NCBI RefSeq assembly: GCF_900163645.1 | Contig: NZ_FUKM01000005.1 | Span: 1-64,000 of the forward strand | DNA from: Halomonas citrativorans | Lineage (GTDB): Bacteria > Pseudomonadota > Gammaproteobacteria > Pseudomonadales > Halomonadaceae | DNA length: 64,000 nucleotides | Reading direction: 5' to 3' | Shown here: piece after piece, positions 27,422 through 43,849 of the stretch | Position numbering within the stretch: the stretch's first letter is position 1 | How the letters are laid out: the number at the start of each line of letters is the position of its first letter | Notes under the pieces: generated by a model | Seen by the model: the letters and a program-made list of their open reading frames with translations, nothing else | Told to the model about the DNA's origin: nothing | The model's database searches: none | Translations under genes and position numbers: made by a program

Positions 27422-27662
27422 GATAGAACTCTCCTGCTGCCGCCCAGGTTGCGACCGTAGTCTTGAACATTGGTGACTGTCACGCCGTTCTTCTCCTGCC
27501 AGTTGACCGCGAAAAGACGGTTGCCGAGTGGCACGACCTGAATATCAACGATCTGGGTCCGGGCTAACTCCCCTTCCTTGGTCTCGAACCTCAATTGGAT
27601 GACACTCAATACGCCACTCGGCTTTCTCGCAACGTGCCAATGAAGAGCCTCGCCATCCTCGC
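27418..27662 (-). pseudogene. MoaF-like domain fragment
   Basis: An open stretch reads IQLRFETKEGELARTQIVDI, then QVVPLGNRLFAVNWQEKNGV and TVTNVQDYGRN, which resembles the C-terminal beta-barrel strands of MoaF-related lipocalin-like proteins. It has no good start, its last residues (LGGSRRVLS) look out of register, and its stop overlaps the ATG of the ThDP gene. The junction with that GC-rich gene falls near 27455, so the insertion probably truncated it. The identification is tentative. Confidence 0.45.
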
Positions 27663-27667
27663 TCAGA

Positions 27668-28321
27668 TCATCCTGCGTTGTTGGGCACCGGTGTGTTGAG
27701 CAACTGTTGCTCCCACAGGAACGCGATACCGCTACCGCCGCTATGCTGCTTCATAACATCGATCATCCCTTCAAGGCTGCCAGTTCGGGCCCAATCACGC
27801 TGCCACTCGGCCGCCACCGCCAACCAGGTCATCACGTTCACGCCGGCCCCAATCATGCGCTGGATGGCAACCTCATGGGCCTCGACTGAGACGGCGCCAG
27901 ACGCATCAGTGACTACCGTCACGTCCCAGCCTTCTCCAGCGGCTTGGATGGCTGGCATGGCGACGCATATTTCGGTCCACAGCCCGGCGATGATCAGCTG
28001 CTTTCGGCCTGTCGCCTTGACCACGTCCACCACCTTCGGGTCCTCCCAGGTATTGATGAATGTCCGATCGATTACCTCCTGGTCAGGGAACACGTCGGTG
28101 ATCTGAGGGAAAATCACGCCACCCTGAGCAGCCAGCACGCTCGTCAGAATGGTGGGCACGTTGAACGCCTTGGCTGCCTTTGCGAGGCCCGTTGAGTTGT
28201 TGATCACCATCAGTGGCTCGTGGCTGTTCAAGTTCGCCAGCTGAAACGGCTGGTGGTCGATGAGTACGAGTACCGAGTCTTCGGGACGAAGAAGCGAAGC
28301 AAGGCCGTTACGGAAAGTCAT
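27668..28321 (-). CDS. Isochorismatase-family cysteine hydrolase (YcaC-like, second type)
   Basis: Cysteine hydrolase, 217 residues. Catalytic Asp22 (VLVLIDHQPF) and Cys119 (AGLWTEICVAMP) are present. It shares the architecture of the enzyme at 10198 but is a distant paralogue (different N-terminus, LASLLRPED). Substrate unknown. GAGGA precedes the ATG. Its upstream region contains copy C of the shared promoter module, about 100 bases from the start. The MoaF-like fragment follows downstream. Confidence 0.87.
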   Translation of the reverse strand: MTFRNGLASLLRPEDSVLVLIDHQPFQLANLNSHEPLMVINNSTGLAKAAKAFNVPTILTSVLAAQGGVIFPQITDVFPDQEVIDRTFINTWEDPKVVDVVKATGRKQLIIAGLWTEICVAMPAIQAAGEGWDVTVVTDASGAVSVEAHEVAIQRMIGAGVNVMTWLAVAAEWQRDWARTGSLEGMIDVMKQHSGGSGIAFLWEQQLLNTPVPNNAG

Positions 28322-29024: not shown

Positions 29025-30131
29025 TTAACTGCTTCGATTGCGCTCTAGGGCGTTACGATAGATCGCCAGCAAGCGATAGAAACCGTGAACGAATTTGCCA
29101 TAGGGCATGGTGATGAAGAGCGCCATTACTACGCCTAAATGTATCACCAGCATAACTCCCATGGCTGAAGTCTCACGTAGAAGCATTAGGGACAGGCCTG
29201 TTAAGCCGGTCAGCCATAGCAGCACTATGAAAGCCACATCCATTCCCATCTGACGCACATCAGCAGTGTCTTGATCACGCACCAGCTTGAGGTACAAAAG
29301 CCCCGCCGGGCCTATCAAAAGGCCGATGCCGCCCAAGGTACCGAACAGCTTGGGAAGACTGATAAAATCGTAGGGCGCCTGCCACCCAAATACATAGTGA
29401 TAGATGGTGCCGGTCACGGTCGCTGCGAAGCTAAGCATGAACCCGTAAAAGGTAAAATGGTGGAAGCGTCGCCGCCAGTGCGAATGATAGGCATCTGGGT
29501 AAGTGCAACCAGCCTCCTCCTGACCGTGCAGATGCTTGAGTGAAAAGGTTTCTTTGAGTGCCTGCCGCCAGCTTTCGGCATCGCGTAGCCCAGCAACGCC
29601 CTCGCCGCTTTCTCGCCAAAAGCGCACCATTCCCATTACTAAAGCTAGTAGTACAAATAACGATACCGAGCCGAAGGTCACCACCAGCGTGTTGTGTGGC
29701 AATAGCTCGTAGAAGTTTCCACTATGCTGTGTGGTGACTAGAGCCGACAGATCACCGTTGAGTGCAATAGCAATCAACAGTATTAGCGTCAAACCTGCTG
29801 CCAACGCCAAGGCGGTAAGCAGGCCATTGCGGTCAAACAGTCTTGCCAACGGTTGTGGCCAAGCATACTGCCGATAAGACTCTACACGAAGCTTGGCCAT
29901 TGACTGCGGTACGTTAACGGCAAACTCATGGGGCGGAGCGTACTGGCAAGCGTAGTAGCACTCACCACAGTTGTGGCATAGGTTAGCCAGATACTTAAGA
30001 TCCTCGGGAGTGAACGTACGACGCCTCTCCATGGCCGGAAATACCGGGCAGAACCCTTCGCAGTACCGACAGGCATTGCAAATCGTCATGTTATTGCGGG
30101 TTTCTTCGATTATTGCATCAATCTTTTGCAT
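29025..30131 (-). CDS. tcuB: Tricarballylate-utilisation-type iron-sulfur membrane protein TcuB
   Basis: Membrane-bound electron-transfer partner of TcuA, 368 residues. The N-terminus carries two four-cysteine clusters, CNACRYCEGFCPVFP (about 18-32) and CHNCGECYYACQYAPP (about 52-67), ligating two [4Fe-4S] centres. The rest has about six membrane helices with His residues suited to quinone or haem contact. TcuB in Salmonella passes electrons from TcuA to the quinone pool. Start ATG 30131 lies inside the last codons of tcuA (14-base overlap), so translation is coupled. The substrate of this pair need not be tricarballylate. Confidence 0.87.
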   Translation of the reverse strand: MQKIDAIIEETRNNMTICNACRYCEGFCPVFPAMERRRTFTPEDLKYLANLCHNCGECYYACQYAPPHEFAVNVPQSMAKLRVESYRQYAWPQPLARLFDRNGLLTALALAAGLTLILLIAIALNGDLSALVTTQHSGNFYELLPHNTLVVTFGSVSLFVLLALVMGMVRFWRESGEGVAGLRDAESWRQALKETFSLKHLHGQEEAGCTYPDAYHSHWRRRFHHFTFYGFMLSFAATVTGTIYHYVFGWQAPYDFISLPKLFGTLGGIGLLIGPAGLLYLKLVRDQDTADVRQMGMDVAFIVLLWLTGLTGLSLMLLRETSAMGVMLVIHLGVVMALFITMPYGKFVHGFYRLLAIYRNALERNRSS

Positions 30132-31542
30132 AATTGCCTGCCTCTGTGCCTGCGATACGACCAAATACGGTGCCGATAGTCATACCAAAGCCAGCGACAT
30201 AGCCCTGGCCTAGAATATTACCGGCCATGATTTCACCGGCCAGGAAAACATTGTCAGCCAACTCGCCGTTAGCCATGTACATACGCGCCTTTTCATCGAC
30301 TTTGGCACCAAGGTAGGTGAAAGTAATACCAGTACGAAGCGGGTAGCCATAAAAAGGTGGCTCGTCGATACGTTGTGCCCAATGGGTCTTTTCGGGCGTA
30401 ACACCCTGTGTATGGCAATCGTCGAGCACACTGTGATCGAAGTTGCCAGGCTGTACGCCAGCATTGAAGTCATCGACAGTTTTGAGCACGGCTTCAACCG
30501 GCAGATCGAGCTTAAGTGCCAATTCCTCCAGAGTATCGGCTTGCTCGGGTGGAAAAACTGAAGGCATAAAGCGCCCCTGAGCCTTGGAGTCGGTAATTGA
30601 ATAGCCCATCTGCCCCGGCTGCTTGGCGATCAGCCGACCCCAGATGGCGTAGCGCTTGGGCCAGAAGTCCTCGCCCTCGTCATAGAAGCGCTGGCCATCG
30701 CGGTTAACCACAATACCCAGGGACACACAGTCGACACGGGTGACGATACCGCCATCGTACTTGGGCGCACGTGCATCAATAGCTACCGCATGTCCTTGCG
30801 TCGGATCCCCAATCACCATGGCGCTGTTATCAATCAGGCTGCGCAGCATCTTGCCCTGGTTGAAGCGTGTTCCGCGGATCAGGAAATTACGGGAGACCTC
30901 TCCCCATGCTTCTTCCAACCACGCTTGGTTGGACTCGAAGCCACCAGAAGCAATCACTACTGACTTAGCACTCACCTTGCGTGGCGAGCCATTGTAAGTC
31001 ACCAACGCATGGTCAAAGCGGTTGTCATCAAAGACCAACTGTTCGGCTTCAGCCTCGTAGAGGATTGTCACCCCAAGTCGCTCAGCTGCCTGGTAGTAGG
31101 TATTGACGAGCGCTTTACCGCCTCCCAGGAAAAAGGCGTTGGTTCGCCCCAAGTGCAGAGTGCCACCCAGCGACGGTTGAAAGCGCACACCGTAACTTTT
31201 CATCCACTCGGTGCAGGTTTCTGAGGCTCGAATCACATGCTTCGCCAAAACTTCGTTGGTGATGCCGCCGGTAACACGCCAAACGTCATCGAAGAACTCA
31301 TCCTCAAGGTAGGCGTCACTGAGCACGTCGGTAGGTTCGCGATGCATGCAACGTAAGTTGCGGGTATGGATACTATTACCACCACGCCATTGACGCGGAG
31401 CACTCTCCAACAATAAAACGGTTGCGCCTTGCTCACGCGCCGACAGCGCAGCACACAACGCGGCATTGCCTCCGCCGATCACTAATACATCATGGTCAAT
31501 TAGATCGGCCTCGCTAAGCCGTTCTCCAGTCGATGACAACAT
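30118..31542 (-). CDS. tcuA: FAD-dependent tricarballylate-dehydrogenase-type protein TcuA
   Basis: Flavoprotein of the fumarate reductase/succinate dehydrogenase group, 474 residues. FAD-binding VLVIGGGNAALCAALSAREQ (about 19-38), the conserved RGGNSIHTRNLR after it, and the C-terminal VFLAGEIMAGNILGQGYVAG (about 435-454) are TcuA hallmarks. In Salmonella TcuA oxidises tricarballylate to cis-aconitate. Downstream tcuB is coupled to it, and a divergent GntR/FCD regulator starts 159 bases away. In this island the tctCAB transporter would supply the carboxylate. Start ATG at 31542 gives MLSSTGERLSEADLI, a plausible N-terminus. Confidence 0.87.
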   Translation of the reverse strand: MLSSTGERLSEADLIDHDVLVIGGGNAALCAALSAREQGATVLLLESAPRQWRGGNSIHTRNLRCMHREPTDVLSDAYLEDEFFDDVWRVTGGITNEVLAKHVIRASETCTEWMKSYGVRFQPSLGGTLHLGRTNAFFLGGGKALVNTYYQAAERLGVTILYEAEAEQLVFDDNRFDHALVTYNGSPRKVSAKSVVIASGGFESNQAWLEEAWGEVSRNFLIRGTRFNQGKMLRSLIDNSAMVIGDPTQGHAVAIDARAPKYDGGIVTRVDCVSLGIVVNRDGQRFYDEGEDFWPKRYAIWGRLIAKQPGQMGYSITDSKAQGRFMPSVFPPEQADTLEELALKLDLPVEAVLKTVDDFNAGVQPGNFDHSVLDDCHTQGVTPEKTHWAQRIDEPPFYGYPLRTGITFTYLGAKVDEKARMYMANGELADNVFLAGEIMAGNILGQGYVAGFGMTIGTVFGRIAGTEAGNYAKD

Positions 31543-31608
31543 TGAGACTCCTCATAATTATTATTGGGAAACATGCCGACGGTAAAATCATGCACCAGAT
31601 TCCAATAA

Positions 31609-31620
31609 ATACAAATGTAT
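31609..31620. promoter_or_regulatory. Candidate GntR/FCD operator upstream of tcuA
   Basis: ATACA-AA-TGTAT, an inverted repeat between the divergent tcuA and GntR genes. Very similar words (TTACAATGTA at 37282, ATACAATG at 37301) lie in the intergenic region between tctC and the SDR gene, which suggests one regulator for the whole island. Confidence 0.4.
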
Positions 31621-31701
31621 CCAATAGTGTTCAAAATGACAAGCGATGTTCTTTGGCATACCATAGCCAAATGCCACTATCGCAATTAAAGGCCCTAAGC
31701 T

Positions 31702-32391
31702 ATGTCAGCATCCACAACACGCAAGAGTGCCTCTACGGCAGACAATCCTCGCGGTGAACCGCGCAGCGAGCAGGCATATCGATATATCATCGACGCTATA
31801 AAGGAAGGCAGCCTGCCGCCGGGTACACGGATTCGTGAAGTCGACCTATCAGAACGTGTAGGACTAAGTCGCACTCCTATCCGCGAGGCACTCAATCGAC
31901 TACAGCTCGAAGGGTTGGTGGCTAATGACCCAATTCGCGGCACTATCATCACTGAACTTGACCACGGCATGATCAGCGAGCTGTATGCCATGCGCGAGAT
32001 GTTGGAGGGCACTGCTGCTGGCTTTGCCGCACAGCACGCTTCGGAAGTAGAAATTGCTTTTTTACGAGAGATTAGCGAACGCGATGCGCAATTAAGTGAG
32101 ACCCATGATCTGGTCAAGAATAACAAGCTATTTCATAGCACCCTGTACCGCTGCGCGCACAACCGCTACCTGCTTAAAATGCTGCACTCGCTGCAAGAAT
32201 CAATGATGTTGCTCGGGCGTAGCACCCTAGCCAAACCAGGCCGTTCAGAATCAGCGCGCGGTGAACATCAGGCAATCATTAACGCGCTCGAAGCACGCGA
32301 TCCAGAAGCCGCCGAAAAACTGGCACGGACCCATATCCGCGAAGCCTACAAGATCCGTCTAGAGGCTTTTTTTGAGAGTTATGACAACTAA
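31702..32391 (+). CDS. GntR-family regulator, FCD type
   Basis: Regulator of 229 residues: winged helix (about 20-85; VDLSERVGLSRTPIREALNR) and an alpha-helical FCD ligand domain (about 95-220) whose metal/ligand residues sit in the helices around SELYAMREMLEG and ...KNNKLFHSTLYRCAHNRYL (shown by LFHSTLYRCAHN). FCD regulators usually bind organic acids and repress catabolic genes. It lies divergent from tcuAB and 1 base from the convergent aldehyde dehydrogenase, at the centre of the island, so it most likely controls it. A run TAAAGG precedes the ATG. Confidence 0.88.
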   Translation: MSASTTRKSASTADNPRGEPRSEQAYRYIIDAIKEGSLPPGTRIREVDLSERVGLSRTPIREALNRLQLEGLVANDPIRGTIITELDHGMISELYAMREMLEGTAAGFAAQHASEVEIAFLREISERDAQLSETHDLVKNNKLFHSTLYRCAHNRYLLKMLHSLQESMMLLGRSTLAKPGRSESARGEHQAIINALEARDPEAAEKLARTHIREAYKIRLEAFFESYDN

Positions 32392-32392
32392 A

Positions 32393-33871
32393 TCAGGTAC
32401 GGATCGCAAAAGGATCGCGGGCTTCGTTAGACAAGTCGATCATTAAGTTTTTAATCTCAAGGTACTCATCTAAAGCATGCAGTCCGCGCTCGCGGCCAGT
32501 ACCACTGGCCTTAACCCCTCCGAATGGTGCTTGTGCGGCATTTGTGCGATAGGTATTGACCCATACCCCGCCAACCTGAAGCTGTCTGGCGACGCGATGA
32601 GCCCTTGCCAAATTCTGTGTCCATAGCCCGGCGACCAACCCGTAAGCGGTGCCGTTAGCGATGGCGATGGCCTGCTCCTCCGTCTCGAAGGGAATAATCG
32701 CTAACACTGGTCCAAACACTTCTTCTTGAGCCAGTTCAGAGTCCGATGCCACATCAGAGAATACCGTCGGCTCGACGAAGTAGCCGCGACCATATACGTC
32801 GCCCTGCGGCACCCCACCGCCCGCCGCCAACTTAGCACCCTGAGTGCGGGCACGATCAATGAAGTCGAGCACTCGTCGATGTTGGGCCTTGGTCGCTACC
32901 GGGCCCATCTCGGTGGACTCATCGCGGGGGTCGCCAACCCGAATTACTCGTGCGCGTTCACACACCTGCGCCACCACTTGATCGTAGATGTCGCGCTGCA
33001 CCAACAACCGAGAGCCGGCAATGCAGGTCTGACCAGCGGCGGCAAAGATTCCCGCCACCGCTCCGGTCACAGCCTGCTTAAGGTCAGCGTCGGCGAACAC
33101 GATGTTGGCCGATTTACCACCTAGTTCAAGGGTCACCGGTGTCAGATGCTCGGCGGCGATCCGAGAAATTGCCTTGCCTGTGGCGGTACCTCCGGTGAAA
33201 CTAATTAAATCAATACCGGAATGAGCAGTGAGCGCCGCACCGACGCTGCCGTCCCCGGTCACCACGTTAATCACACCGGGAGGAAAGCCAGCTCTTTCGC
33301 TCAGCTCGGCGAAAGCCAAGGTGGTCACGCTGGCCATCTCCGAGGGCTTAATTACAACGGTGCAACCCGCCGCCAGCGCTGGCGCCAGCTTATTAGCCAG
33401 GATAGCCATGGGCGAATTCCAAGAAGTAATCAGGGCCGCTACGCCTCGGGGCTCGCGGGTGGTGAAGTCTACGAGTTCGGCGCGATCCAGCGGGATGCTA
33501 TCGCCCTGAAGCTTGTCGGCCCAGCCAGCAAAATAGCGATAATTACGCGCAGCAAAGCGCATCTGAACGCGAGTCTCGCGGATTACCTTGCCGTTGTCGG
33601 TGGTCTCAAGCTGAGCCATGCGCTCAGCATCAGACTCCAGCAGCTCGGCGAGTCGTTGCATCAATGTTGCCCTAGTCAAGCCATTAGTGTCTTTCCAGCC
33701 ACCATCGAAGGCCTCTCGTGCCGCGCTTACTGCAGCATCTACATCCTCTGCGTTGGCTTGTGGAAGATCAGCCCAAGCCTGCTGATTAACCGGATTGATG
33801 GCAGGAAATGTGGCACCACCCGTGGCATCGCGCCAGGCACCACCAATGTAAAGTTGATAGCAAGTTGTCAT
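32393..33871 (-). CDS. Aldehyde dehydrogenase of the tct island
   Basis: ALDH-superfamily enzyme, 492 residues. Asn152 (TSWNSP), Glu249 (TLELGGKS) and Cys283 (AGQTCIAGS) form the active site. The substrate is unknown; sequence style is close to the broad-range ALDHs often found with decarboxylases. ATG 33871 has GGAGAAA upstream and is preferred over the longer TTG frame. It is the last gene of the minus-strand tctC-tctA-tctB-ALDH series, 27 bases after tctB, so it is probably co-transcribed with the transporter and acts on an aldehyde formed from the imported acid. Confidence 0.88.
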   Translation of the reverse strand: MTTCYQLYIGGAWRDATGGATFPAINPVNQQAWADLPQANAEDVDAAVSAAREAFDGGWKDTNGLTRATLMQRLAELLESDAERMAQLETTDNGKVIRETRVQMRFAARNYRYFAGWADKLQGDSIPLDRAELVDFTTREPRGVAALITSWNSPMAILANKLAPALAAGCTVVIKPSEMASVTTLAFAELSERAGFPPGVINVVTGDGSVGAALTAHSGIDLISFTGGTATGKAISRIAAEHLTPVTLELGGKSANIVFADADLKQAVTGAVAGIFAAAGQTCIAGSRLLVQRDIYDQVVAQVCERARVIRVGDPRDESTEMGPVATKAQHRRVLDFIDRARTQGAKLAAGGGVPQGDVYGRGYFVEPTVFSDVASDSELAQEEVFGPVLAIIPFETEEQAIAIANGTAYGLVAGLWTQNLARAHRVARQLQVGGVWVNTYRTNAAQAPFGGVKASGTGRERGLHALDEYLEIKNLMIDLSNEARDPFAIRT

Positions 33872-33898
33872 GTGGTATTTCTCCAAGGGTAGAGGCAA

Positions 33899-34399
33899 TC
33901 AGCGGAATGGATCGAAGAAATAGCCCACCGGCCAATGCATATTGAATGCTTCTGCAAGGCCAAACAGTGCAGCCATCAGCAGTACTGTACCGATCAGAGT
34001 CGCAAACCAGCGCATCTTGCCGACTAGGCGACAGAATGCGACGGTAAAAATCGCTGCAGAGGCAATAAGACCAATCAGATAAATCCCAAGGTAAAGCGCC
34101 GCTAGCCAGGCCAGATAGGGGGCAGTACGGCGGAACTTGGCGCCCCAGATTGGCTCAATGCCAGCATTGCCAACATGCTCACCATTCACTTTAGTGTCAT
34201 CGACAGAGTGCGGTGCACGAAAGCGTCGTATGGTCAGCACTCCCTCTACAATGAGTAGAAACATCACCGCGCTCGATACCACCTGGGGCATAAGCCGCGC
34301 GTTGAATGGATAGCCAGCGGCCATGAACAGGGCCATCCCCATAAGCCCTATCAGCACCACGATAAATAGTAGTTCTTCACGCAGTCGCTGTATCATCAA
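33899..34399 (-). CDS. tctB: Tripartite tricarboxylate transporter, small membrane subunit TctB
   Basis: Small membrane component of a TTT (tctABC-type) secondary importer, 166 residues, four membrane helices (about 11-30, 37-57, 95-115, 120-155). The family is poorly conserved, so the call rests on size, topology and a 4-base overlap (ATGA) with tctA. Between helices 2 and 3 lies a polar stretch (residues 60-90) as usual. Works with TctA in the inner membrane. Confidence 0.83.
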   Translation of the reverse strand: MMIQRLREELLFIVVLIGLMGMALFMAAGYPFNARLMPQVVSSAVMFLLIVEGVLTIRRFRAPHSVDDTKVNGEHVGNAGIEPIWGAKFRRTAPYLAWLAALYLGIYLIGLIASAAIFTVAFCRLVGKMRWFATLIGTVLLMAALFGLAEAFNMHWPVGYFFDPFR

Positions 34400-35868
34400 G
34401 TTTCTCCCAAGCCCTTGCGTTTAGCGCACACCCCTGCTGCTACCACAGCCACCGCTAGAACTCCGATAACGATGACGATTGGATCACTGAGCCAGGACCA
34501 GCCGTAGCGGGATGCCGAGATGGTCAGATACCGCTCGATGCTCGGCGCCAGCACGAAGCCGATCAGGATCGGCGCCCGAGGCCAGTCATAGGACTTGAGC
34601 AGCCAGCCAAACATGCCAATGACAATGAAGGCGACCAAGTCACCCCACTGATTGGTGTTTTGGAAGGCACCGACCAGCATTATGATGAGCAGGAAAGGCG
34701 CGAACTTTGCGGCTGGAATAGTACTAAGGCGGGCGATAGGCCTCGATAGCAGAAAGCAAGCGAAGGCACCCACTACATTGGCCAACGCCAATGTCCAGAC
34801 GATGGTTAGGGTAATCGACAAATCCGTAGTCAGCATCGAAGGGCCGGGCTGTATTCCGAGCAGGATCAAGCCTCCAAGCAGTACCGCCGTGGTACCACTG
34901 CCAGGAATGCCAAACAGCATAGTTGGGATTAGCGCGCCCCCCTCCTTGGCATTGTTGGAGCTCTCAGGAGCAATAACACCGCGGACATCACCCTTCCCGA
35001 AGCCACTCTTGTCTTTAGAGCTCTGCACCGCCTGGCCGTAAGAGAGCCAATCGACCACCGAGCCACCAAGACCAGGGATCGCCCCAACAGCCACGCCCAG
35101 GGCTGCAGAGCGGAGTACTAGCCATCGATTGCGGATGGTATCGCGCACACCGTCCTTCCAGCCGCTGGAGATTTCTTTAACTTTGGAGACAGCTCGGTTA
35201 TCAGCCAAAAGATCAATGATCTCAGGCACCGCGAACAGACCCATAGCCAGTATCGACAGAGGTATCCCATCCATCAGATAAACGCTGTCACCGACGAAAC
35301 GGAAAGTAACCGATGAGGGTGCTGAACCAAGCATAGCGATCATGATGCCAATAAGGGTGGCGAGAATACCGCGGAACGGGTACTTACCTGCTAGCAGGCC
35401 AACCACGCATAGGCCCAGCACAGTGAGCATAAAAAGATGGGGCGACTTAAAAGCCAGCACTACCGGACGAGCGATGGGCAAGATAGCGAACAACACTAAC
35501 GCACCGATCAGGCCGCCGATCAGGGAGGCGCTGAAGGCCGCACTAAGTGCACGGCCAGCTTTGCCCTGCTGCGCCATAGGATAACCATCGAGGATGGTTG
35601 CCTGAGAGCCCGCCGAGCCAGGCACCCCAATCAGGATACTCGGAAAGGTGTCGGCGGTTGCAATCACAGCGGCCATACCGATAAGCATCGCTGTAGCAGC
35701 ATGGGGATCCATACCATAGATGAACGGCAACAACAGCGACATGCCCACAACCCCCCCTAACCCGGGGAGAATACCCACAACCAACCCCACACTGATACCC
35801 AAAAGCATGAATACCAAACGGGATGGATCCAGGATCAACGACAGTGCATCAAACGAAGCGGCTAACAC
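34396..35868 (-). CDS. tctA: Tripartite tricarboxylate transporter, large membrane subunit TctA
   Basis: Main permease of the TTT family, 490 residues with about 11-12 helices. Signature segments GILPGLGGVVGMSLLLPFIY (about 33-52) and its internal repeat GAIPGLGGSVVDWLSYGQAV, with VIAPESSNNAKEGGALIPT near 300, are characteristic of TctA. The start codon is GTG at 35868, with AGGAG 9 bases upstream. It is preceded by tctC and overlaps tctB. The substrate is set by TctC and is likely a di- or tricarboxylate. Confidence 0.92.
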   Translation of the reverse strand: MLAASFDALSLILDPSRLVFMLLGISVGLVVGILPGLGGVVGMSLLLPFIYGMDPHAATAMLIGMAAVIATADTFPSILIGVPGSAGSQATILDGYPMAQQGKAGRALSAAFSASLIGGLIGALVLFAILPIARPVVLAFKSPHLFMLTVLGLCVVGLLAGKYPFRGILATLIGIMIAMLGSAPSSVTFRFVGDSVYLMDGIPLSILAMGLFAVPEIIDLLADNRAVSKVKEISSGWKDGVRDTIRNRWLVLRSAALGVAVGAIPGLGGSVVDWLSYGQAVQSSKDKSGFGKGDVRGVIAPESSNNAKEGGALIPTMLFGIPGSGTTAVLLGGLILLGIQPGPSMLTTDLSITLTIVWTLALANVVGAFACFLLSRPIARLSTIPAAKFAPFLLIIMLVGAFQNTNQWGDLVAFIVIGMFGWLLKSYDWPRAPILIGFVLAPSIERYLTISASRYGWSWLSDPIVIVIGVLAVAVVAAGVCAKRKGLGET

Positions 35869-35982
35869 GGCTACGAGCTCCTATCCTGCTTTTGGTAAAG
35901 GAGGGTACCCTGCTAATAAATCAACAGCGCACCCGAGCACTTCAAGTGAGAATCTAGTAGTTCTCTAGCGTTGTAAGTTATC

Positions 35983-37086
35983 TCAAAGGTCAGCGTCGTA
36001 GCGTTCCTTGAAGGTCTTGCGTAGGTAGTTGAGAGCCTCCTCAGAAACATCCAAGGTTGCGCTCATAGCAGTGTAAGCATCATCACCGACCAACCACTCG
36101 TAGGGGCCATTGGCTTCTACAGAGTCAGCCATAAAGTCTTCATCTTCACGTGCTTGCTCGAAGGCGTAGCGCAGATCATTAATTGAATCCTTTGGAGCGT
36201 CGGCCTTGGCCCACAGCATCTTGATACTGCCTGCAGAGAGCACCGCCCGATAGGCATCCCAGGCAACCCCGGACGGCGCTTCGCCGTGACGCTCCTCGTA
36301 TACCTCAGCGACAGTTGGCATATCAGGGAAGGCCGGATCACGCACCAACTCACCGTCAGTGTCGATAACACCTAAGCTGAATAGCGGAACCGCAGTGCCC
36401 TCCTCGACCAGCGGCTCGACGTTGGAGGTGTAGGCGCTAGTGGTCTGGAAATCGAGATTGGTTTCACCTTGTTCCAGCGCCAGCCGGGTCGGCCCACGGC
36501 TCTGATAGCCGAAAATAGCGTCATGCGGTAGGTCAAGAAGTGCGAAGGCAGCTAGTGCCATCGAGCCAATTGCCTGGGGCGATACTTCTCCGTAAATCAG
36601 CTCGTCTACTTCCCACAACTCAAGTGGATCTTCTATTCCCAAATCAGCGCTAGCATAGACCACGCCGCTTTGAGCCATGGCAACAATTGGTTCGTAGTCA
36701 CGGAAGTCATAGCGCACCGCATCAGAACCATACATGAAAGGAAAAACCTGACCGGCACTTTGCAGCAATACCGTCATGCCATCGCTGGCAGTTCTCAACT
36801 GGAACTCGTTGGAGCCCTGTACACCGCCAGCCCCTGGCCGATTGATAACCTGCACACTAACGTCTTCTCCCAAATAAGGGCCGATAGTTGCAGATACATA
36901 GCGCCCCCAGGTATCTGCCCCTCCGCCAGGTGTCCAGGGTGTCAGTATCTCTAACGTCTCGCCGTCGTAAAAACCGGTAAGTTCGGCGTGGCTATTGGCT
37001 ACCACCCCGGAACTCAGTCCTGCTGCAACTGCAAGTGTCAGTGCACGGCGGGTAAAACATGAGGCATTGCGTGTAGTTTTATTCAT
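35983..37086 (-). CDS. tctC: Tripartite tricarboxylate transporter binding protein TctC
   Basis: Periplasmic Bug/TctC-family solute-binding protein, 367 residues. A signal peptide with an Arg pair (FTRRALTLAVAAGLSSGVVA, cleavage near HAE, about residue 34) is followed by the Bug fold with the VINRPGAGGVQGSNE segment that forms the carboxylate-binding loop (about 80-94). It is acidic, as expected in a halophile. Length exceeds the common 320-330 by about 40 residues. AGGAG precedes the ATG. First gene of the tctC-tctA-tctB-ALDH operon, facing the SDR gene across 272 bases. Confidence 0.85.
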   Translation of the reverse strand: MNKTTRNASCFTRRALTLAVAAGLSSGVVANSHAELTGFYDGETLEILTPWTPGGGADTWGRYVSATIGPYLGEDVSVQVINRPGAGGVQGSNEFQLRTASDGMTVLLQSAGQVFPFMYGSDAVRYDFRDYEPIVAMAQSGVVYASADLGIEDPLELWEVDELIYGEVSPQAIGSMALAAFALLDLPHDAIFGYQSRGPTRLALEQGETNLDFQTTSAYTSNVEPLVEEGTAVPLFSLGVIDTDGELVRDPAFPDMPTVAEVYEERHGEAPSGVAWDAYRAVLSAGSIKMLWAKADAPKDSINDLRYAFEQAREDEDFMADSVEANGPYEWLVGDDAYTAMSATLDVSEEALNYLRKTFKERYDADL

Positions 37087-37271
37087 TTCTTGAGAACTCC
37101 TTTCTGGATTTACGGCTGGTGCACGCTTGGCAAAAAAACGGTACCGCCGATGCTGCTAGTTGTTGTTGTGTACTTGAGTATGCAAATGAACTCAACGATA
37201 TTCAATAATAAGGAAAGTAAATTCTACTGCCTACATTGCTTTAGTCTTAGTGAGTAATTCACCAAATACAG

Positions 37272-37310
37272 TCATCCTGTATTACAATGTAGACTCTTGC
37301 ATACAATGCG
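37272..37310. promoter_or_regulatory. Candidate regulator sites between tctC and SDR gene
   Basis: TACA-A-TGTA (37283-37291) and GCAT-ACA-ATGC (about 37299-37309) lie 50-75 bases before the SDR start. They share ATACAATG with the repeat near tcuA, consistent with shared control by the FCD regulator. Confidence 0.35.
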
Positions 37311-37358
37311 TCGACATGCCTTATATCGTCCAAGGTATCTAAAATCAGGAGCAATCGA

Positions 37359-38141
37359 ATGGACATGGCCCTCACCGATAAAGTGGCGTTAGTGACTGGC
37401 GCCAGCCAGGGTATCGGCTTCGAAACAGCACTACTGCTCGCCGAAGAAGGCGCCAAGGTAGTACTGGTCGCCCGACGTGAAAAACCACTGCAGCTAGCTG
37501 CCGAGCGCATCAACTCACTGACCGGCCAGCGTCCGATAACCATCGTTGCCGACATTGCCAGTGCCGACGGCCCCGTTGCGGCAGTGGAGCGTACTATTGA
37601 GGCCTGCGGCGGCCTGGATATCCTGATCAACAATGCCGGAAGCAGCGCCTCTGGACCTTTTCTGGAGGCCGATGACGCCGTGTGGCAGGCCGATATTGAA
37701 CTCAAGCTGATGGGCGCAATACGTGGAATTCGTGCCGCTCTACCTTACCTTGCAGACTCGTCAGCGGCGGCGATCGTCAATGTCACTACAGTGTCGGGCA
37801 AAGCACCTCCGGCCAAGACCTTACCTACTTCGGCAACCCGCGCCGCCGGTATTGCTCTGACCAAATCACTAGCCAATGAGCTCGGCGCACAAGGTATTCG
37901 CGTCAATACCGTTTGCCTGGGTAGGGTCCGTTCGGCTCAGGTCGAGCGGCGCTGGCAGCGTGAAGCACCTGAGCTCAGCTGGGAGGACTACTCGGCGCGC
38001 CAGGGCCAAGGCATTCCTCTCGGTCGACTGGGCGATGCTAAAGACGTGGCCAATGCCATTGTGTTCTTAGTCTCATCCCGCGCAGGTTACGTGACCGGCG
38101 CCAGTCTCAACGTCGACGGCGGGCGCAGCGCCACTGTCTGA
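37359..38141 (+). CDS. Atypical SDR protein lacking the YxxxK pair
   Basis: Rossmann-fold SDR, 260 residues. Cofactor motif TGASQGIG (13-20) and NNAG (91-94) are normal, and Ser146 (TTVSG) is present. The catalytic Tyr and Lys are replaced: LPTSATRAAGIALTKS places Thr157 and Arg161 where YSASK is expected. The rest (VTGASLNVDGG at the C-terminus) is standard and the frame is intact, so this looks like a genuine subfamily with a different mechanism or a non-redox role. AGGAG precedes ATG 37359. It is followed by a ThDP enzyme 62 bases on, in the same direction. Confidence 0.85.
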   Translation: MDMALTDKVALVTGASQGIGFETALLLAEEGAKVVLVARREKPLQLAAERINSLTGQRPITIVADIASADGPVAAVERTIEACGGLDILINNAGSSASGPFLEADDAVWQADIELKLMGAIRGIRAALPYLADSSAAAIVNVTTVSGKAPPAKTLPTSATRAAGIALTKSLANELGAQGIRVNTVCLGRVRSAQVERRWQREAPELSWEDYSARQGQGIPLGRLGDAKDVANAIVFLVSSRAGYVTGASLNVDGGRSATV

Positions 38142-38203
38142 ATCAACGCAATTCGCCACCACTCAACAGCCAACCCCAATAACAATTGTATAGGAGGCCC
38201 GCC

Positions 38204-39844
38204 ATGCCAAGCGTTGCCCAGACCCTAATCGACGGCCTGCGTCGCGAAGGCGTCACCCATGTATTCGGCATTCCCGGCACCCAGAACCTGGCGCTGCTCG
38301 ACGTCATTCGCGAGACCCCGGAGATGCGCTTCATCCTTACCCGTCACGAGCAGGGGGCAGCCTTCATGGCTTACGGCTATGCCCGCGCCGGCCAGCGTCC
38401 GGCGGTGGTCACCGCCACAGAGGGGCCCGGCGTGACCAACATGGCCACGCCGTTTGGTGCTGCCTATCGTGGCAACGTACCGCTGATAGGCATCAACGGC
38501 CTACAAGAGGAGTGGCTGCGCGAGAAGGATGCCAGCCAGGAGATGGATCAAATCACTTTCTTCAAGCCGATCACCAAGTGGGCCTATTCAATCACCGGCC
38601 CAAATAAAGCTCAGGAGGCGCTGCGCAAGGCGTTTCGCACCGCATTGGCTGAGCCACCGGGGCCGGTTCACATTGAAGCTTCTACCGCTATTTACCGCGC
38701 TGAAGTTGAGGCAGAGACACAGTTGCCTCAGCAATATCGCGCCAGCGTGCTTCCCGAAGTTGCCGGGCAGTGTCTCGACCAGGCCGCAGCATTGCTGGCT
38801 AAGGCAGAATGCCCGGTCATCTTGGCGGGCAGCGGCGTATTACGCGAACGCGCCAGCGCCGAACTGATCGCCTTCGCCGAACAGCACAATATCCCGGTCG
38901 CGCCGCTACAGTTCAGCCCCGATGCTTTCCCCACTTCGCATCAGCTGGCCCTTGGGCCGCTAGGGCGCAATGGGTGGAATAGTGCCAACCGGGTAGTCAA
39001 GCAGGCAGATGTAGTCATCGCCGTGGGCGCACGCATGGATCTGTTCTCGACTACCTTCAAGCACGGGTTGATTCACGATGACGTTATCCTTATCCACCAA
39101 GCAGCCAGCGTCGATCCGATCGGCACGGTATTTCCGGTGGACGTCGCTGCGGTGGGAAGCACGCAGAGCTTCCTAGCCGGACTGGCGACCCGCCTTGACG
39201 GACAACGCTGGGACTGGGTCGATGTGACTGCCGAGGTAGCGCTCTGGGAAGAGGAGCGTCAGGCACTAATCGACCCCAGTGCCGAGCCGATTCAACCCCC
39301 TTTCGTCGCCGATGTGCTCAGGCGCACTTTGCCCAAGGGCGGCATAATGGTGGTCGACGCTGGCAATGCTGGTAAGCACGTCCGCCAGCACTTTGTCAGT
39401 CATGCCCCCGATACCTATATATTCATCGATAACTGGGCGGCCGTCGGCGCCGGTTTCCCCACAGCGCTGGGGGCGGCATTAGCCCGACCTAATGTGCCGG
39501 TACTGGCAGTACAAGGCGATATGGGGTTTATGTGCAATATCGGCGAACTGGAAACCGCCGTGCGCGAGAAGATCAAATTGGTGGCTGTCGTCATCAACGA
39601 TCAGGGCCTTGGCAATGAACGAGCCTTTCAAGACGCCTACTACGATGGTAAGCACTTCGCTGTCGACTATCAGAACCCCGACTTCGGTGTTTTGGCCCGT
39701 GCCTTCGGCGCTCACGGGGAGAAGGTCACTCGACCCGGCGACCTAGAGGCCGCTATGCAACGCGCCTTTGCAGCGGATGGCCCCGCGGTAGTCGACGTAA
39801 TGATCGACAAGCTCAATCTCGCTCCGGTGCTTTTTAAAGCCTGA
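38204..39844 (+). CDS. ThDP-dependent enzyme (decarboxylase/acetolactate-synthase-like)
   Basis: Thiamine-diphosphate enzyme, 546 residues, with catalytic Glu motif TRHEQGAAFMAYG (about 45-57) and the cofactor motif GDMGFMCNIGELETAV ending VVINDQGLG (about 440-470; GDM instead of GDG). The family covers acetolactate synthase, benzoylformate decarboxylase and similar enzymes; the exact reaction is unknown. Given the neighbouring aldehyde dehydrogenases and carboxylate transporter, a 2-oxoacid decarboxylase or a carboligase is likely. ATG 38204 (MPSVAQTL) follows a strong GGAGG; the longer frame is rejected. It sits between the SDR and MFS genes in one operon. Confidence 0.85.
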   Translation: MPSVAQTLIDGLRREGVTHVFGIPGTQNLALLDVIRETPEMRFILTRHEQGAAFMAYGYARAGQRPAVVTATEGPGVTNMATPFGAAYRGNVPLIGINGLQEEWLREKDASQEMDQITFFKPITKWAYSITGPNKAQEALRKAFRTALAEPPGPVHIEASTAIYRAEVEAETQLPQQYRASVLPEVAGQCLDQAAALLAKAECPVILAGSGVLRERASAELIAFAEQHNIPVAPLQFSPDAFPTSHQLALGPLGRNGWNSANRVVKQADVVIAVGARMDLFSTTFKHGLIHDDVILIHQAASVDPIGTVFPVDVAAVGSTQSFLAGLATRLDGQRWDWVDVTAEVALWEEERQALIDPSAEPIQPPFVADVLRRTLPKGGIMVVDAGNAGKHVRQHFVSHAPDTYIFIDNWAAVGAGFPTALGAALARPNVPVLAVQGDMGFMCNIGELETAVREKIKLVAVVINDQGLGNERAFQDAYYDGKHFAVDYQNPDFGVLARAFGAHGEKVTRPGDLEAAMQRAFAADGPAVVDVMIDKLNLAPVLFKA

Positions 39845-39872
39845 GCGTCACCACCCACTACCAAGGAACGTA

Positions 39873-41099
39873 ATGGACGACAGCCCAAGCTCAACTCCCG
39901 ATAAAAGCGCTATACGCAACCTAGTAATGGTCTGTATAGGACTAACGAGTGTATTCGTCTCACAGACGATGCTGCTGATTTCAGTCCCCTTGCGCGCTCT
40001 TGAGCTTGGTGCCAATCCATCGCTAGTGGGCTTTATCCTCTCTGCACCCTATTTACTACCGCTAGTTTTCGCGATTCCGCTGGGGGGTGTGGTCTCCCGG
40101 ATTGGTCCACAGAAAATGTTCTTTATTGGCGCCACTGGCATGATCCTTGGTCCCTTGCTAAGTCTCTTGTCCCCAACCTTCCTCGGGCTGCTGGCAACCC
40201 AGGTAACCATCGGCCTTACGCATGTGGTGATGGTCATCGCCGCCCAATCAGTGGTCGCCGGATTAGGCCGAGGACGAACCTTAGAGCGTTATTTTGGCTG
40301 GTACACCATGTGCCTTTCAGGCGGCCAGTTAATTGGCCCACTGTTAGCTGGATATCTGATTGATACGCTATCGACAAACTGGGTTTTTGTAGTCATCAGC
40401 GTGGTCCCGGCGATAGGTCTAGTGAGCTCCTGCTTCTTTGTGGGCAATGCTCGTAGTGGCCATGCAACACCGCGTTCACTACTTGGTTACCGCGCCCAAG
40501 CTTCGTTGCTGCGCGAAAATGTCGGTGTGCAGATGTCGCTAACCGTCACTATCGCAGTGCTATTTGCATTGGGCGCACATGGTGCTTTCTTACCGGTCTA
40601 TCTTGAGGAGTTAACTTTCTCAGCCACATTGATCGGGGTACTGGTGAGTCTGCGAGCACTAACAGCGATGCTAATAAGACCCGTCATGCCACAGATTATC
40701 CAGGCACTTGGCGGGCGCGCCAGGACAATGATTGCGTCGGTGGCGGCGGTGTCCATGGGGCTAATGTGGACGGGAATGACCGGCAGTGTTTTGGCGCTGG
40801 CAGTGCTTGCCATTATGGTGGGTCTAGGATCAGGAATTTCTCAACCACTGTCGATGGTTATCCTTGCCGAACACGTACATCCCGACCAACGCTCCAGCGC
40901 ACTTGGTATGAGACTCATGGGCAACCGTGGAGCCCAGGTACTGGCGCCTTTGCTGTTGGGCATAATCGCCGAGCTGGCCGGCTTCACGCTAACCTTTCTG
41001 CTTACCGGAACCTTACTGCTGGCGATGCTCGTCATTGTGGTTCGCCTCAGACCGCGCTTTGACCAGGCTGAAGCGGCCAACGCTCAACAGCACTTTTAG
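39873..41099 (+). CDS. MFS transporter
   Basis: Major facilitator superfamily transporter, 408 residues, 12 membrane helices. The loop between helices 2 and 3 reads GGVVSRIGPQKMF, as usual in MFS (G..SDR.GRR), and the middle loop after helix 6 is short. Probably moves an organic acid or exports a product of the island; the substrate cannot be given. AAGGAA precedes the ATG. It is the last gene of the plus-strand SDR-ThDP-MFS operon, 28 bases after the ThDP gene. Confidence 0.85.
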   Translation: MDDSPSSTPDKSAIRNLVMVCIGLTSVFVSQTMLLISVPLRALELGANPSLVGFILSAPYLLPLVFAIPLGGVVSRIGPQKMFFIGATGMILGPLLSLLSPTFLGLLATQVTIGLTHVVMVIAAQSVVAGLGRGRTLERYFGWYTMCLSGGQLIGPLLAGYLIDTLSTNWVFVVISVVPAIGLVSSCFFVGNARSGHATPRSLLGYRAQASLLRENVGVQMSLTVTIAVLFALGAHGAFLPVYLEELTFSATLIGVLVSLRALTAMLIRPVMPQIIQALGGRARTMIASVAAVSMGLMWTGMTGSVLALAVLAIMVGLGSGISQPLSMVILAEHVHPDQRSSALGMRLMGNRGAQVLAPLLLGIIAELAGFTLTFLLTGTLLLAMLVIVVRLRPRFDQAEAANAQQHF

Positions 41100-42107: not shown

Positions 42108-43040
42108 TTACAGAGCGGTCTGAACCGCTGGCAGTGCAGGCTCGCCATCCAGGGTCGTCACACCTTCAAGCCACGTGGCTAATAAATCGTCGTGCTCTTT
42201 TAAATAACGATTGGCGGCAACGCGAGGGTCGACCCCCTCATTCATAATGGCGCCCATTAACTGGTTTTCCATTTCCAGCGTAAACGTCATATTGCCAAGT
42301 AGTGTACCCACGTTCGGGCACGCTTCGACAAACCCGGCGCGCGTATTGGTGTGCACCGTGGCGCCACCCAAGTCAGGTCCAAAGTAATCATCCGCATCGG
42401 ATAAGTAGGCCATATCAAAGTTGGTATTCATGGGATGCGGCTCCCACCCCAGAAAGACCATCCACTCTTCATTGGGGACGCGTGTTGTCAACTCTGAAAG
42501 CATGCCTGCTTCACTGGAATCCACCACCTGCCAATCGCCCAGGTCGTAGGCATTATCATCAATCATTTGCTGGATAAGCTCATTGCCATCGTTACCCGCC
42601 TCGATGCCATGCACGCGATGGTTAAATTGATCAGCGTGAGCCGCTAAATCATTCACAGAGGTAACACCTGCATCGTACACGTATTGCGGTACGGCCAGCG
42701 TGTATTTGGCGCCTTCCAAATTAACAACTAACCGCTCAACATCGCCACTCTCAATATACGGGTCGCTGATGGACGCCATAGAGGGCATCCAGTTGCCTAA
42801 AAAGACATCAAAATCATTGTTACGCATACCCGCATAGGCAATCGGTACTGATACCGTATCGACGGTTGGCTCATAGCCTAGCGCCTCCAACACTTCGCTG
42901 GCCAACGCCGTTGTCGCGGTAATATCGGTCCAGCCTACTTCGGCAAAACGCACACGCGAACACTCATCGGCTTGAGCCATCATGGGCATAGCAGCCCCCA
43001 ACATAAATGCGCTTAATCCCACCACCTGGACACGTTTCAT
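42108..43040 (-). CDS. Choline/glycine-betaine ABC transporter binding protein (ChoX-like)
   Basis: Periplasmic binding protein of the OpuAC/ChoX family, 310 residues. Signal peptide QVVGLSAFMLGAAMPMMA, cleaved near AQADE (about residue 24). Aromatic residues that form the quaternary-amine box are in FAEVGWTD, LGNWMPSM and FLGWEPHPMN. No permease or ATPase gene is adjacent; the ABC partners must be elsewhere. ATG 43040 has GGGGAG upstream. It is divergent from betI, with a palindrome between, so it is probably induced by choline together with betIBA. Confidence 0.85.
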   Translation of the reverse strand: MKRVQVVGLSAFMLGAAMPMMAQADECSRVRFAEVGWTDITATTALASEVLEALGYEPTVDTVSVPIAYAGMRNNDFDVFLGNWMPSMASISDPYIESGDVERLVVNLEGAKYTLAVPQYVYDAGVTSVNDLAAHADQFNHRVHGIEAGNDGNELIQQMIDDNAYDLGDWQVVDSSEAGMLSELTTRVPNEEWMVFLGWEPHPMNTNFDMAYLSDADDYFGPDLGGATVHTNTRAGFVEACPNVGTLLGNMTFTLEMENQLMGAIMNEGVDPRVAANRYLKEHDDLLATWLEGVTTLDGEPALPAVQTAL

Positions 43041-43117
43041 TGCGACTCCCCTTCTATTTACGTCAATGGGCATGTTTATTCCTTTAACGCCAAGCGCAGC
43101 AACATGCACCAACGTTT

Positions 43118-43139
43118 ATTGATTGAACGTTCAATAAAC
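43118..43139. promoter_or_regulatory. Candidate BetI operator
   Basis: Perfect palindrome ATTGAACGTTCAAT (43122-43135), flanked by TTTATTGA and TCAATAAA, lies between the binding-protein gene and betI. TetR-type operators have this form. BetI is known to repress bet genes until choline is present. Confidence 0.6.
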
Positions 43140-43215
43140 AACTACTAAGATATACAGGTAATCATGACTAACCGTATGTTTCAAGGTAGGCATTCAACGT
43201 CATCAGGAGATAGCT

Positions 43216-43830
43216 GTGCCGAAGGTGGGAATGGAACCGATACGCCGCCAGCAGTTAATTAACGCCACAATGGCGGCCATTGACGAAGTGGGATTGGCAG
43301 AAGCAACCATTATGCGGATTGCCCGTCACGCGGGCGTCTCAGCAGGTATCATCAGTCACTACTTTGGCGGGAAAGATGGCCTTCTTGAAGCCACTATGCG
43401 CCAGATATTGACCGACCTTAGTGACGCTATTTCGGCGCGACGCAGGGCGTTGAACGAGGACTCGCCTAAAGCGCACATCAGCGCGATTATCGAAGGCAAC
43501 TTCGACCGTACTCAAGTAACCGGCCCCGCTGCTAAAACATGGCTTGCCTTTTGGGCCAGCAGCATGCACAAGCCGATGCTTCAGCGCCTACAGAATGTGA
43601 ACGATAGACGCCTTTACGCCAATTTATGCTATCAGTTTCGACGCGTGCTCCCCCAAATTGAGGCACGCAATGCGGCCCGCGGCCTGGCCGCCATGATTGA
43701 CGGTTTATGGCTACGCGGTGCATTAACGCCCGAAGGCCTTGATGCCGAAAAAGCCCGCCATCTAGCGCTCCACTATCTTGATCAGCTCTTAGCCCATCAC
43801 GAATATCAACACTCAGCACCCGCTCATTAA
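43216..43830 (+). CDS. betI: Choline-responsive repressor BetI (TetR family)
   Basis: TetR-family repressor, 204 residues. The N-terminal [18 protein letters not shown] and the helix-turn-helix [20 protein letters not shown] (about 35-54) are the BetI signature. The remainder is the choline-binding/dimer domain. Start is GTG at 43216 with AGGAGA before it. First gene of betI-betB-betA; 19 bases precede betB. Represses the operon until choline binds. Confidence 0.93.
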
Positions 43831-43849
43831 GCTTATAAAGGAGCCCAAC

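Follow-up and report, generated by a model that had tools for sequence, protein, structure and literature searches.

Tricarballylate use has been described in Salmonella, where the tcu operon encodes a tricarballylate dehydrogenase (tcuA), an FADH2:quinone oxidoreductase (tcuB) and a transporter (tcuC), as given in PMC10468695; the conversion of tricarballylate to cis-aconitate is stated there in the title of reference 40. The present analysis concerns a 12-kb block of ten genes (positions 29025-41099), called the island below, in a stretch of 64,000 nucleotides from Halomonas citrativorans (contig NZ_FUKM01000005.1, positions 1 to 64,000; the window), which belongs to a genome of 3.98 Mb in 65 contigs. 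The island combines tcuAB with genes for a tripartite tricarboxylate transporter (TTT) importer, a GntR/FCD regulator, an aldehyde dehydrogenase (ALDH), an atypical short-chain dehydrogenase/reductase (SDR), a thiamine diphosphate (ThDP)-dependent enzyme and a major facilitator superfamily (MFS) transporter. It is a conserved neighbourhood made up of two modules, which could together form a route of polycarboxylate catabolism ending in TcuAB.

The island TcuA and TcuB belong to the same NCBIfam families as the Salmonella proteins. Unlike in tcuABC, the tcuBA unit of the island has no MFS gene, the MFS gene being located in the SDR-ThDP unit, and the island has in addition a TTT importer, a GntR/FCD regulator, an SDR, a ThDP enzyme and an ALDH. 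The regulator of the Salmonella tcu genes is the LysR-type TcuR. A second group of related loci, the GntR-tcuAB clusters of a Roseivivax marinus plasmid, of Halomonas sp. PA16-9 and of a further family genome (G010), shares tcuAB, GntR and ALDH (58-89% identity) with the island; these have a TAXI-type tripartite ATP-independent periplasmic (TRAP) importer and hydroxyisobutyrate- or isocitrate-type dehydrogenases where the island has TctCAB, SDR, ThDP enzyme and MFS transporter. The features of the island are as follows, with profile scores and their cut-offs in brackets.

29025..30164, minus strand: tcuB, 4Fe-4S/membrane, quinone-linked partner of TcuA (TIGR02484, 402.8, cut-off 246.6)
30118..31542, minus strand: tcuA, FAD-dependent tricarballylate dehydrogenase by family (NF006130, 704.3, cut-off 369; TIGR02485, 607.7, cut-off 372.6)
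31609..31620, no strand: palindrome A, ATACAAATGTAT, in the tcuA-GntR gap, predicted as the likely operator of the GntR/FCD regulator
31702..32391, plus strand: GntR/FCD-family regulator (FCD, 100.4, cut-off 24.3; GntR, 53.4, cut-off 27)
32393..33898, minus strand: ALDH, proposed to carry out the step from semialdehyde to carboxylate (PF00171, 589, cut-off 23)
33899..34399, minus strand: tctB, small membrane subunit of the TTT importer (PF07331, 23.5, cut-off 29.1; E 6.5e-5)
34396..35868, minus strand: tctA, large membrane subunit of the TTT importer (PF01970, 413.1, cut-off 28.9)
35983..37086, minus strand: tctC, periplasmic solute-binding protein, divergent member (PF03401, 32.5, cut-off 27)
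37167..37184, no strand: palindrome B, TGTGTACTTGAGTATGCA, in the divergent tctC-SDR gap
37359..38141, plus strand: atypical SDR with replaced triad (clear SDR domain; alignment to 3ai1; alignment of orthologues)
38186..39844, plus strand: ThDP enzyme of the acetolactate-synthase superfamily (three TPP domains; likely start at the ATG at 38204)
39873..41099, plus strand: MFS transporter (PF07690, 153.4, cut-off 33.4)

All ten genes reported in the earlier note, which had been made from the sequence alone, are present at the coordinates and on the strands it gave, and its family assignments are borne out by the profile scores. Since tcuA overlaps tcuB, tctA overlaps tctB, tctB abuts the ALDH gene and only 44 and 28 bases separate SDR from ThDP and ThDP from MFS in the genes as listed, four transcription units are likely: tcuAB, GntR, tctCAB-ALDH and SDR-ThDP-MFS.

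The conservation of the block was followed in 151 genomes of the family (150 besides the window's own) with thresholds of E<=1e-40 for TctC, E<=1e-100 for the ThDP enzyme and E<=1e-45 for the SDR. TctC matches were obtained in 55 genomes, orthologues of 80-90% identity being confined to the window's genome and six others, while the remaining matches were relatives of 33-40%. The ThDP and SDR searches recovered exactly the same seven genomes. In 20-kb stretches the full ten-gene set, with order and relative orientation kept, was observed in 6 of 6 relatives at 50-96% identity; these belong to genera g12 (four times), g23 and g19, so that with the window's own genus four genera carry the block. 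Among the 25 same-genus genomes listed the TctC orthologue occurs only in the window's own. The earlier note had suggested a search for co-occurrence and had counted the lack of a conserved neighbourhood in every relative against its proposal; the search was run, and all six relatives are fully syntenic. The ten-gene neighbourhood is more than a chance grouping.

Beyond the family, a ThDP search at E<=1e-100 retrieved only the window's own genome, both among 369 genomes of the class and among 398 of the phylum, at most three candidates per genome having been scored, so that a copy could be missed. On plasmids, the ThDP enzyme matched 111 records at E<=1e-60, all below 60% identity, with 34.8% for the first of the best 15; for the SDR there were 309 such records at E<=1e-30, with 42.5% for the first of the best 25; the two plasmid SDR contexts that were read held no match to the ThDP enzyme, ALDH or TcuAB. 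At title and abstract level, with subscription papers mostly not covered, the gene set as described here was not found in the literature. The combination is conserved and apparently undescribed, it is made from known families, and it appears to be a variant of tcu-type carboxylate catabolism.

The distribution of the genes divides the island into a lower module, tcuB-tcuA-GntR-ALDH, and an upper, accessory module consisting of tctCAB and SDR-ThDP-MFS. TcuA was detected in 13 of the 151 family genomes. In G010, G071 and G033 (TcuA identity 96%, 92% and 92%, respectively) tcuB-tcuA-GntR is present and TctC, ThDP and SDR orthologues are absent; ALDH accompanies these genes in G010 (88%) and G071 (85%). 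A 19.5-kb stretch of the 1.8-Mb plasmid of Halomonas sp. PA16-9 has the same arrangement as G010, again without orthologues of TctC, SDR and ThDP. Thus the lower module stands alone in three loci, those of G010, G071 and PA16-9. In G010 and PA16-9 it follows a TAXI-TRAP importer and a 3-hydroxyisobutyrate-dehydrogenase-type gene (neighbours family-tested for G010, assigned by eye for PA16-9), and the latter enzyme is a plausible other source of semialdehyde. In G071 the lower module (L069) has tex and LysR genes next to it, the same two that adjoin the complete island L031; the upper module may have been lost there by a natural deletion.

In trees of TcuA, ALDH and GntR the window groups with G010 and PA16-9, relatives devoid of the upper module, and loci with and without this module are mixed, some forks being weakly supported. 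Since the trees place the window in this way, the lower genes appear to have descended with the lineage. On the same grouping the idea of a recently acquired mobile island in this genome was set aside for the lower genes; the upper module may have been either gained or lost.

The combination of tcuBA-GntR-ALDH with TAXI-TRAP and a hydroxyisobutyrate-dehydrogenase-type gene, seen in L068 and L082, is another possible feeder pathway into TcuAB; L082 also has an SMP-30-type gene, as well as a P450 that is extended at its C-terminus and gives a DmmA-like match under the cut-off. A separate carboxylate cluster was seen in L074 (contig C30 of G035), a genome which also holds a complete island; it comprises a TcuA-like protein (38%), TctC/TctA, MmgE/PrpD and, by eye, isocitrate-lyase-type genes.

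The function of the lower module can be approached through TcuA, which scores far over both tricarballylate dehydrogenase cut-offs and is about 64% identical to proteins annotated as TcuA on Cupriavidus, Burkholderia and Salmonella plasmids. Three blocks were compared with the Cupriavidus TcuA, one being identical and two similar (13 and 12 of 17 residues). By its family TcuA is expected to oxidise tricarballylate to cis-aconitate. TcuB, 71-91% identical across the 6 island loci, falls narrowly under a further model (NF011607, 514.9, cut-off 524); translation of tcuB may in fact begin at an internal ATG, as it does in L070. The ALDH passes no NCBIfam function cut-off among the best 25 of 42 (top betaine aldehyde dehydrogenase, 520, cut-off 668.6).

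A two-module catabolic island, in which the upper module makes a semialdehyde and the lower one converts it through a tricarballylate-type acid to cis-aconitate, is the reading we prefer, tentatively and at a little under an even chance. TctCAB would take up a polycarboxylate, and the SDR and the ThDP enzyme would turn it into an acid semialdehyde, most simply by decarboxylation of a 2-oxo acid. The ALDH would oxidise the semialdehyde, giving tricarballylate or a close relative of it, TcuA would oxidise the tricarballylate-type acid to cis-aconitate with TcuB handing the electrons to quinone, and cis-aconitate would enter the tricarboxylic acid (TCA) cycle. The GntR/FCD protein would control the lower module via palindrome A, possibly also the upper one via palindrome B, and the MFS protein may serve either in the export of a by-product or in the uptake of a second form of the substrate. 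ALDH and TcuAB are placed last because the lower module stands alone and would be expected to yield a TCA-cycle acid. Other than that of TcuA, which is family-based, the reactions, together with the direction of flow and the substrate, are what we infer around the observed gene families, synteny, modularity and palindromes.

The order of steps put forward in the earlier note was the reverse: TcuAB would dehydrogenate the imported acid, the ThDP enzyme would then cleave or decarboxylate it, and the ALDH would oxidise the resulting aldehyde. It draws on the same genes and the same synteny, and TcuAB could indeed make an unsaturated or oxo acid ahead of the ThDP step. However, tcuBA-GntR-ALDH occurs without ThDP and SDR in three loci, and cis-aconitate, the expected product of TcuA, enters the TCA cycle with no further cleavage. 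This order is less economical than the opposite one, and we regard it as unlikely. The description as complete was also too strong for an island whose substrate, like the reactions of its ThDP enzyme and SDR, is putative. What does hold from that proposal is a conserved carboxylate-catabolism neighbourhood uniting TcuAB, ThDP enzyme and ALDH, with a polycarboxylate as the likely substrate.

A different division of labour is plain tricarballylate use by TctCAB, TcuAB and GntR, with SDR-ThDP-MFS and ALDH as a separate pathway sharing the locus. Three more family genomes fit this picture: they have a TcuA of 59-61% identity with TcuB and GntR, next to a TctC gene in G043 and G066 and an MFS gene in G027, and no ThDP orthologue was found in any of the three. 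The outer sample fits it likewise, as 14 of the 21 TcuA genomes of the phylum, presented below, lack an ALDH relative at E<=1e-145, and the palindromes of the two gaps differ. Against it, TctC, SDR and ThDP orthologues always co-occur (7 of 7 in the family sample), tctC and the SDR gene diverge from one gap, and the ten genes are kept in four genera. We consider plain tricarballylate use somewhat improbable, a one-in-several prospect.

The link between TcuA and ALDH was followed outside the family in a phylum sample of 299 genomes. TcuA was present at E<=1e-100 in 21 and ALDH at E<=1e-145 in 12 of them; ALDH occurred in 7 of the 21 TcuA genomes vs 5 of the 278 others (Fisher p about 2e-6, uncorrected for kinship and genome size, both searches being taken to cover the same 299 genomes). 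At most 15 kb of one contig separates the two genes in 3 of the 21 (the window's own genome, G010 and G550), at most five candidates per genome having been scored and draft assemblies possibly hiding linked pairs. Within 12 kb of the Roseivivax marinus plasmid, GntR is followed in unbroken series by tcuA and tcuB, a pair of dehydrogenase-type genes, one Ldh-family gene, IclR, ALDH (58%), TAXI and TRAP. The ALDH link is clear in the Halomonadaceae and occasional elsewhere.

Several observations weigh against the route preferred here. TcuAB alone suffices for tricarballylate use, so the ALDH and the ThDP enzyme could serve another route. G033 keeps tcuBA-GntR, but its nearby ALDH is only 33% identical, and in G071 no importer was recognised by eye within 20 kb of the lower module. 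Of the 19 TcuA genomes from outside the family, 1 (G550) has ALDH and tcuA no more than 15 kb apart on a contig. On plasmids, a Cupriavidus record has tcuAB (64% and 55%) with no ALDH match in 15 kb, one of Diaphorobacter lacks tcuA and has an ALDH (58%) next to genes of TctC type, and one of Paracoccus has an ALDH (60%) and a TcuA-like protein of only 33-34%. The two halves of the island have different palindromes, and the SDR, given its lost triad, may not be a dehydrogenase.

These palindromes replace the sequence element on which a single regulon had been based. The earlier note had described ATACAATG-like repeats shared by two intergenic regions. The island has a single exact copy of the word, at 37301, and the only other one in the window is at 50750; with at most one mismatch it matched 39 times in the window vs 46.5 expected, none of the matches falling in the tcuA-GntR gap, and it is not conserved among the relatives. 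As a shared repeat it was rejected, since it is no commoner than chance and palindromes A and B are conserved instead. Palindrome A, ATACANNTGTAT, is found once in the window (31609, vs 0.01 expected) and once per locus, in the same gap, in 11 of 11 loci with a tcuA-GntR pair at at least 80% identity, namely the seven islands, G010, G071, G033 and PA16-9. It was not found in four more distant loci (L071, L072, L073 and L085, the 59-61% relatives and Roseivivax). Palindrome B, TGTRTACNNNNGTATNCA, is likewise found once in the window (37167, vs 0.00 expected); 7 of 7 islands carry a single copy of it, placed between tctC and the SDR gene, and 0 of 4 stretches lacking the upper module do.

The GntR/FCD gene is the only regulator gene of the block. 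Its DNA-binding GntR domain and its ligand FCD domain are both over their cut-offs, and the protein stays under the cut-off of all 20 NCBIfam families matched. Because both palindromes hold GTAT/ATAC half-sites, a single GntR protein could bind A as well as B. The claim of one regulon is not supported: the shared repeat behind it is not borne out and the halves have different palindromes, which are distinct sites; the block has a single regulator gene.

The TctA, TctB and TctC assignments together indicate a TTT importer. TctB scores under its cut-off and was assigned from its operon position between tctA and ALDH; TctC only narrowly exceeds that of PF03401, and it scores weakest of the 14 TctC-family binding proteins in its own genome (4 Mb). 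Below the orthologues, identity to TctC in the family drops to 33-40%, and six loci of such relatives were read in 20-kb stretches. Four of these (L037, which is in the window's own genome, L038, L039 and L042), with TctC at 37-40% and TctA at 52-54%, lie beside a gene for 4-oxalomesaconate tautomerase (NF033377 scores 486.8, 475.4, 485.6 and 476.6, respectively, cut-off 440), and the best-scoring TctC relative, L038, is among them. The locus in the window's own genome is as follows.

L037, 7473-11854, contig C60 of the same genome: TTT importer and 4-oxalomesaconate tautomerase gene

These tautomerase loci differ from the island in that no ThDP, ALDH or TcuAB match was found in their 20-kb stretches and in having a LysR regulator (by eye). 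The importer relatives point to polycarboxylates of the oxalomesaconate/aconitate kind, an identity of 37-40% not fixing the substrate. L040 and L041 have neighbours other than the tautomerase. In L040 (G133) a related TTT importer has in its vicinity a ThDP enzyme (32%) and an ALDH (40%), together with a gene that by eye is agmatinase-like; this locus looks like a guanidino-acid route.

A specific version of the preferred route can be formulated from the importer relatives. If the ALDH yields tricarballylate, the corresponding 2-oxo acid with one more carbon would be 4-carboxy-2-oxoadipate, the saturated relative of 4-oxalomesaconate, a compound known from lignin and gallate breakdown. A seven-carbon tricarboxylate, such as 4-carboxy-2-oxoadipate or its 2-hydroxy form, would pass TctCAB, SDR, ThDP enzyme, ALDH and TcuAB in turn: the SDR would set the oxidation state, the ThDP enzyme would remove CO2 from the 2-oxo acid to leave tricarballylate semialdehyde, and from this the ALDH would form tricarballylate, which TcuAB would convert to cis-aconitate. 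The guess is made because the best-scoring relative of the importer adjoins the tautomerase, as in 4 of the 6 loci, and because the carbon balance is exact: loss of CO2 from C7 leaves the C6 skeleton of tricarballylate. Taken by itself this version is a speculative one, to which we give a low probability.

The ThDP enzyme has three TPP domains over their cut-offs, and Glu55, which we take to be the catalytic Glu, is invariant in 7 of 7 orthologues; the protein is assigned to the ThDP-dependent superfamily, and its solved near relatives are all from one superfamily. It remains under the cut-off of the best 25 of the 54 NCBIfam families matched, with 376.6 vs 509 for PRK08322 at the top, 353 vs 538 for acetohydroxyacid synthase (AHAS, TIGR00118) and 301 vs 620 for sulfoacetaldehyde acetyltransferase. 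The AHAS motif FDDR, which contains the acceptor arginine, aligns with MDLF in the island enzyme. Since the scores are under the cut-offs and FDDR is replaced by MDLF, the enzyme is probably not an acetohydroxyacid synthase. We propose that the enzyme may be a 2-oxo acid decarboxylase or C-C lyase. Such a reaction is known from cyanobacteria, where a ThDP-dependent 2-oxoglutarate decarboxylase yields succinate semialdehyde (PMC10418658). That enzyme, which turns a dicarboxylic 2-oxo acid into an acid semialdehyde, is a precedent by type of reaction, and the island enzyme is expected to take another substrate.

It is quite improbable, in our estimate, that the ThDP enzyme is a carboligase or a cyclic-dione hydrolase acting on a substrate other than a tricarboxylate. 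Acetolactate synthase, sulfoacetaldehyde acetyltransferase and cyclohexane-1,2-dione hydrolase all match it with none clearly closest, and a 1,2-dione hydrolase would likewise supply an ALDH. The linked importer and TcuAB indicate polycarboxylates, however, and none of the best 25 of the 54 families is reached at its cut-off (the dione hydrolase had none).

The SDR keeps the nucleotide-binding motif, and T144, T157 and R161 stand opposite the Ser, Tyr and Lys of 3ai1. K116 presumably occupies the usual Asn position, 3ai1 itself having no Asn there in the alignment; all four residues are invariant in 7 of 7 orthologues. The label of atypical SDR was therefore justified, the Ser-Tyr-Lys triad of classical SDR dehydrogenases being absent in the alignment to 3ai1. 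The best solved relative, Q9HYA2 (PDB 3lf1, 3lf2; 147 bits), shares with the island SDR a Lys, a Thr and an Arg in place of Asn, Tyr and Lys, so a related SDR subclass exists; the island protein differs from it in T144, where 3lf1 retains Ser. The MFS transporter is under the cut-off of all 18 NCBIfam families it matched, TcuC not being one of these, and NCBIfam includes a TcuC model.

Neither the genes at 25775-28321 nor the choline genes that start at 42108, the neighbours on the two sides of the island, were matched in the six 20-kb island loci, and therefore these flanks lie outside the block. On the minus strand at 25775-27421, outside the island, there is a second ThDP enzyme, which passes the PRK08322 acetolactate synthase cut-off (871 vs 509) and is only 28% identical to the island ThDP enzyme. 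It is adjoined by an isochorismatase-family hydrolase (27668-28321; best NCBIfam YcaC, 159, under the cut-off of 310). Directly beside the island, 42108-45319 holds choline-to-betaine genes (choline-binding protein, BetI and BetB), all over their cut-offs. In L036 a D-2-hydroxyacid dehydrogenase gene adjoins the MFS gene; it was not seen in the flanks of L031 and L033, the only other island flanks listed.

The 12-kb block is compact and kept in four genera. If the proposed route is true, TcuAB, besides being the first enzyme acting on tricarballylate from outside, would also be the last step of a longer route which forms tricarballylate inside the cell. In its seven-carbon version the route would give tricarballylate an intracellular origin and the ThDP subfamily a new reaction. 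The proposed route would also assign a testable reaction to a ThDP enzyme outside the named families and to an SDR that lacks the catalytic triad.

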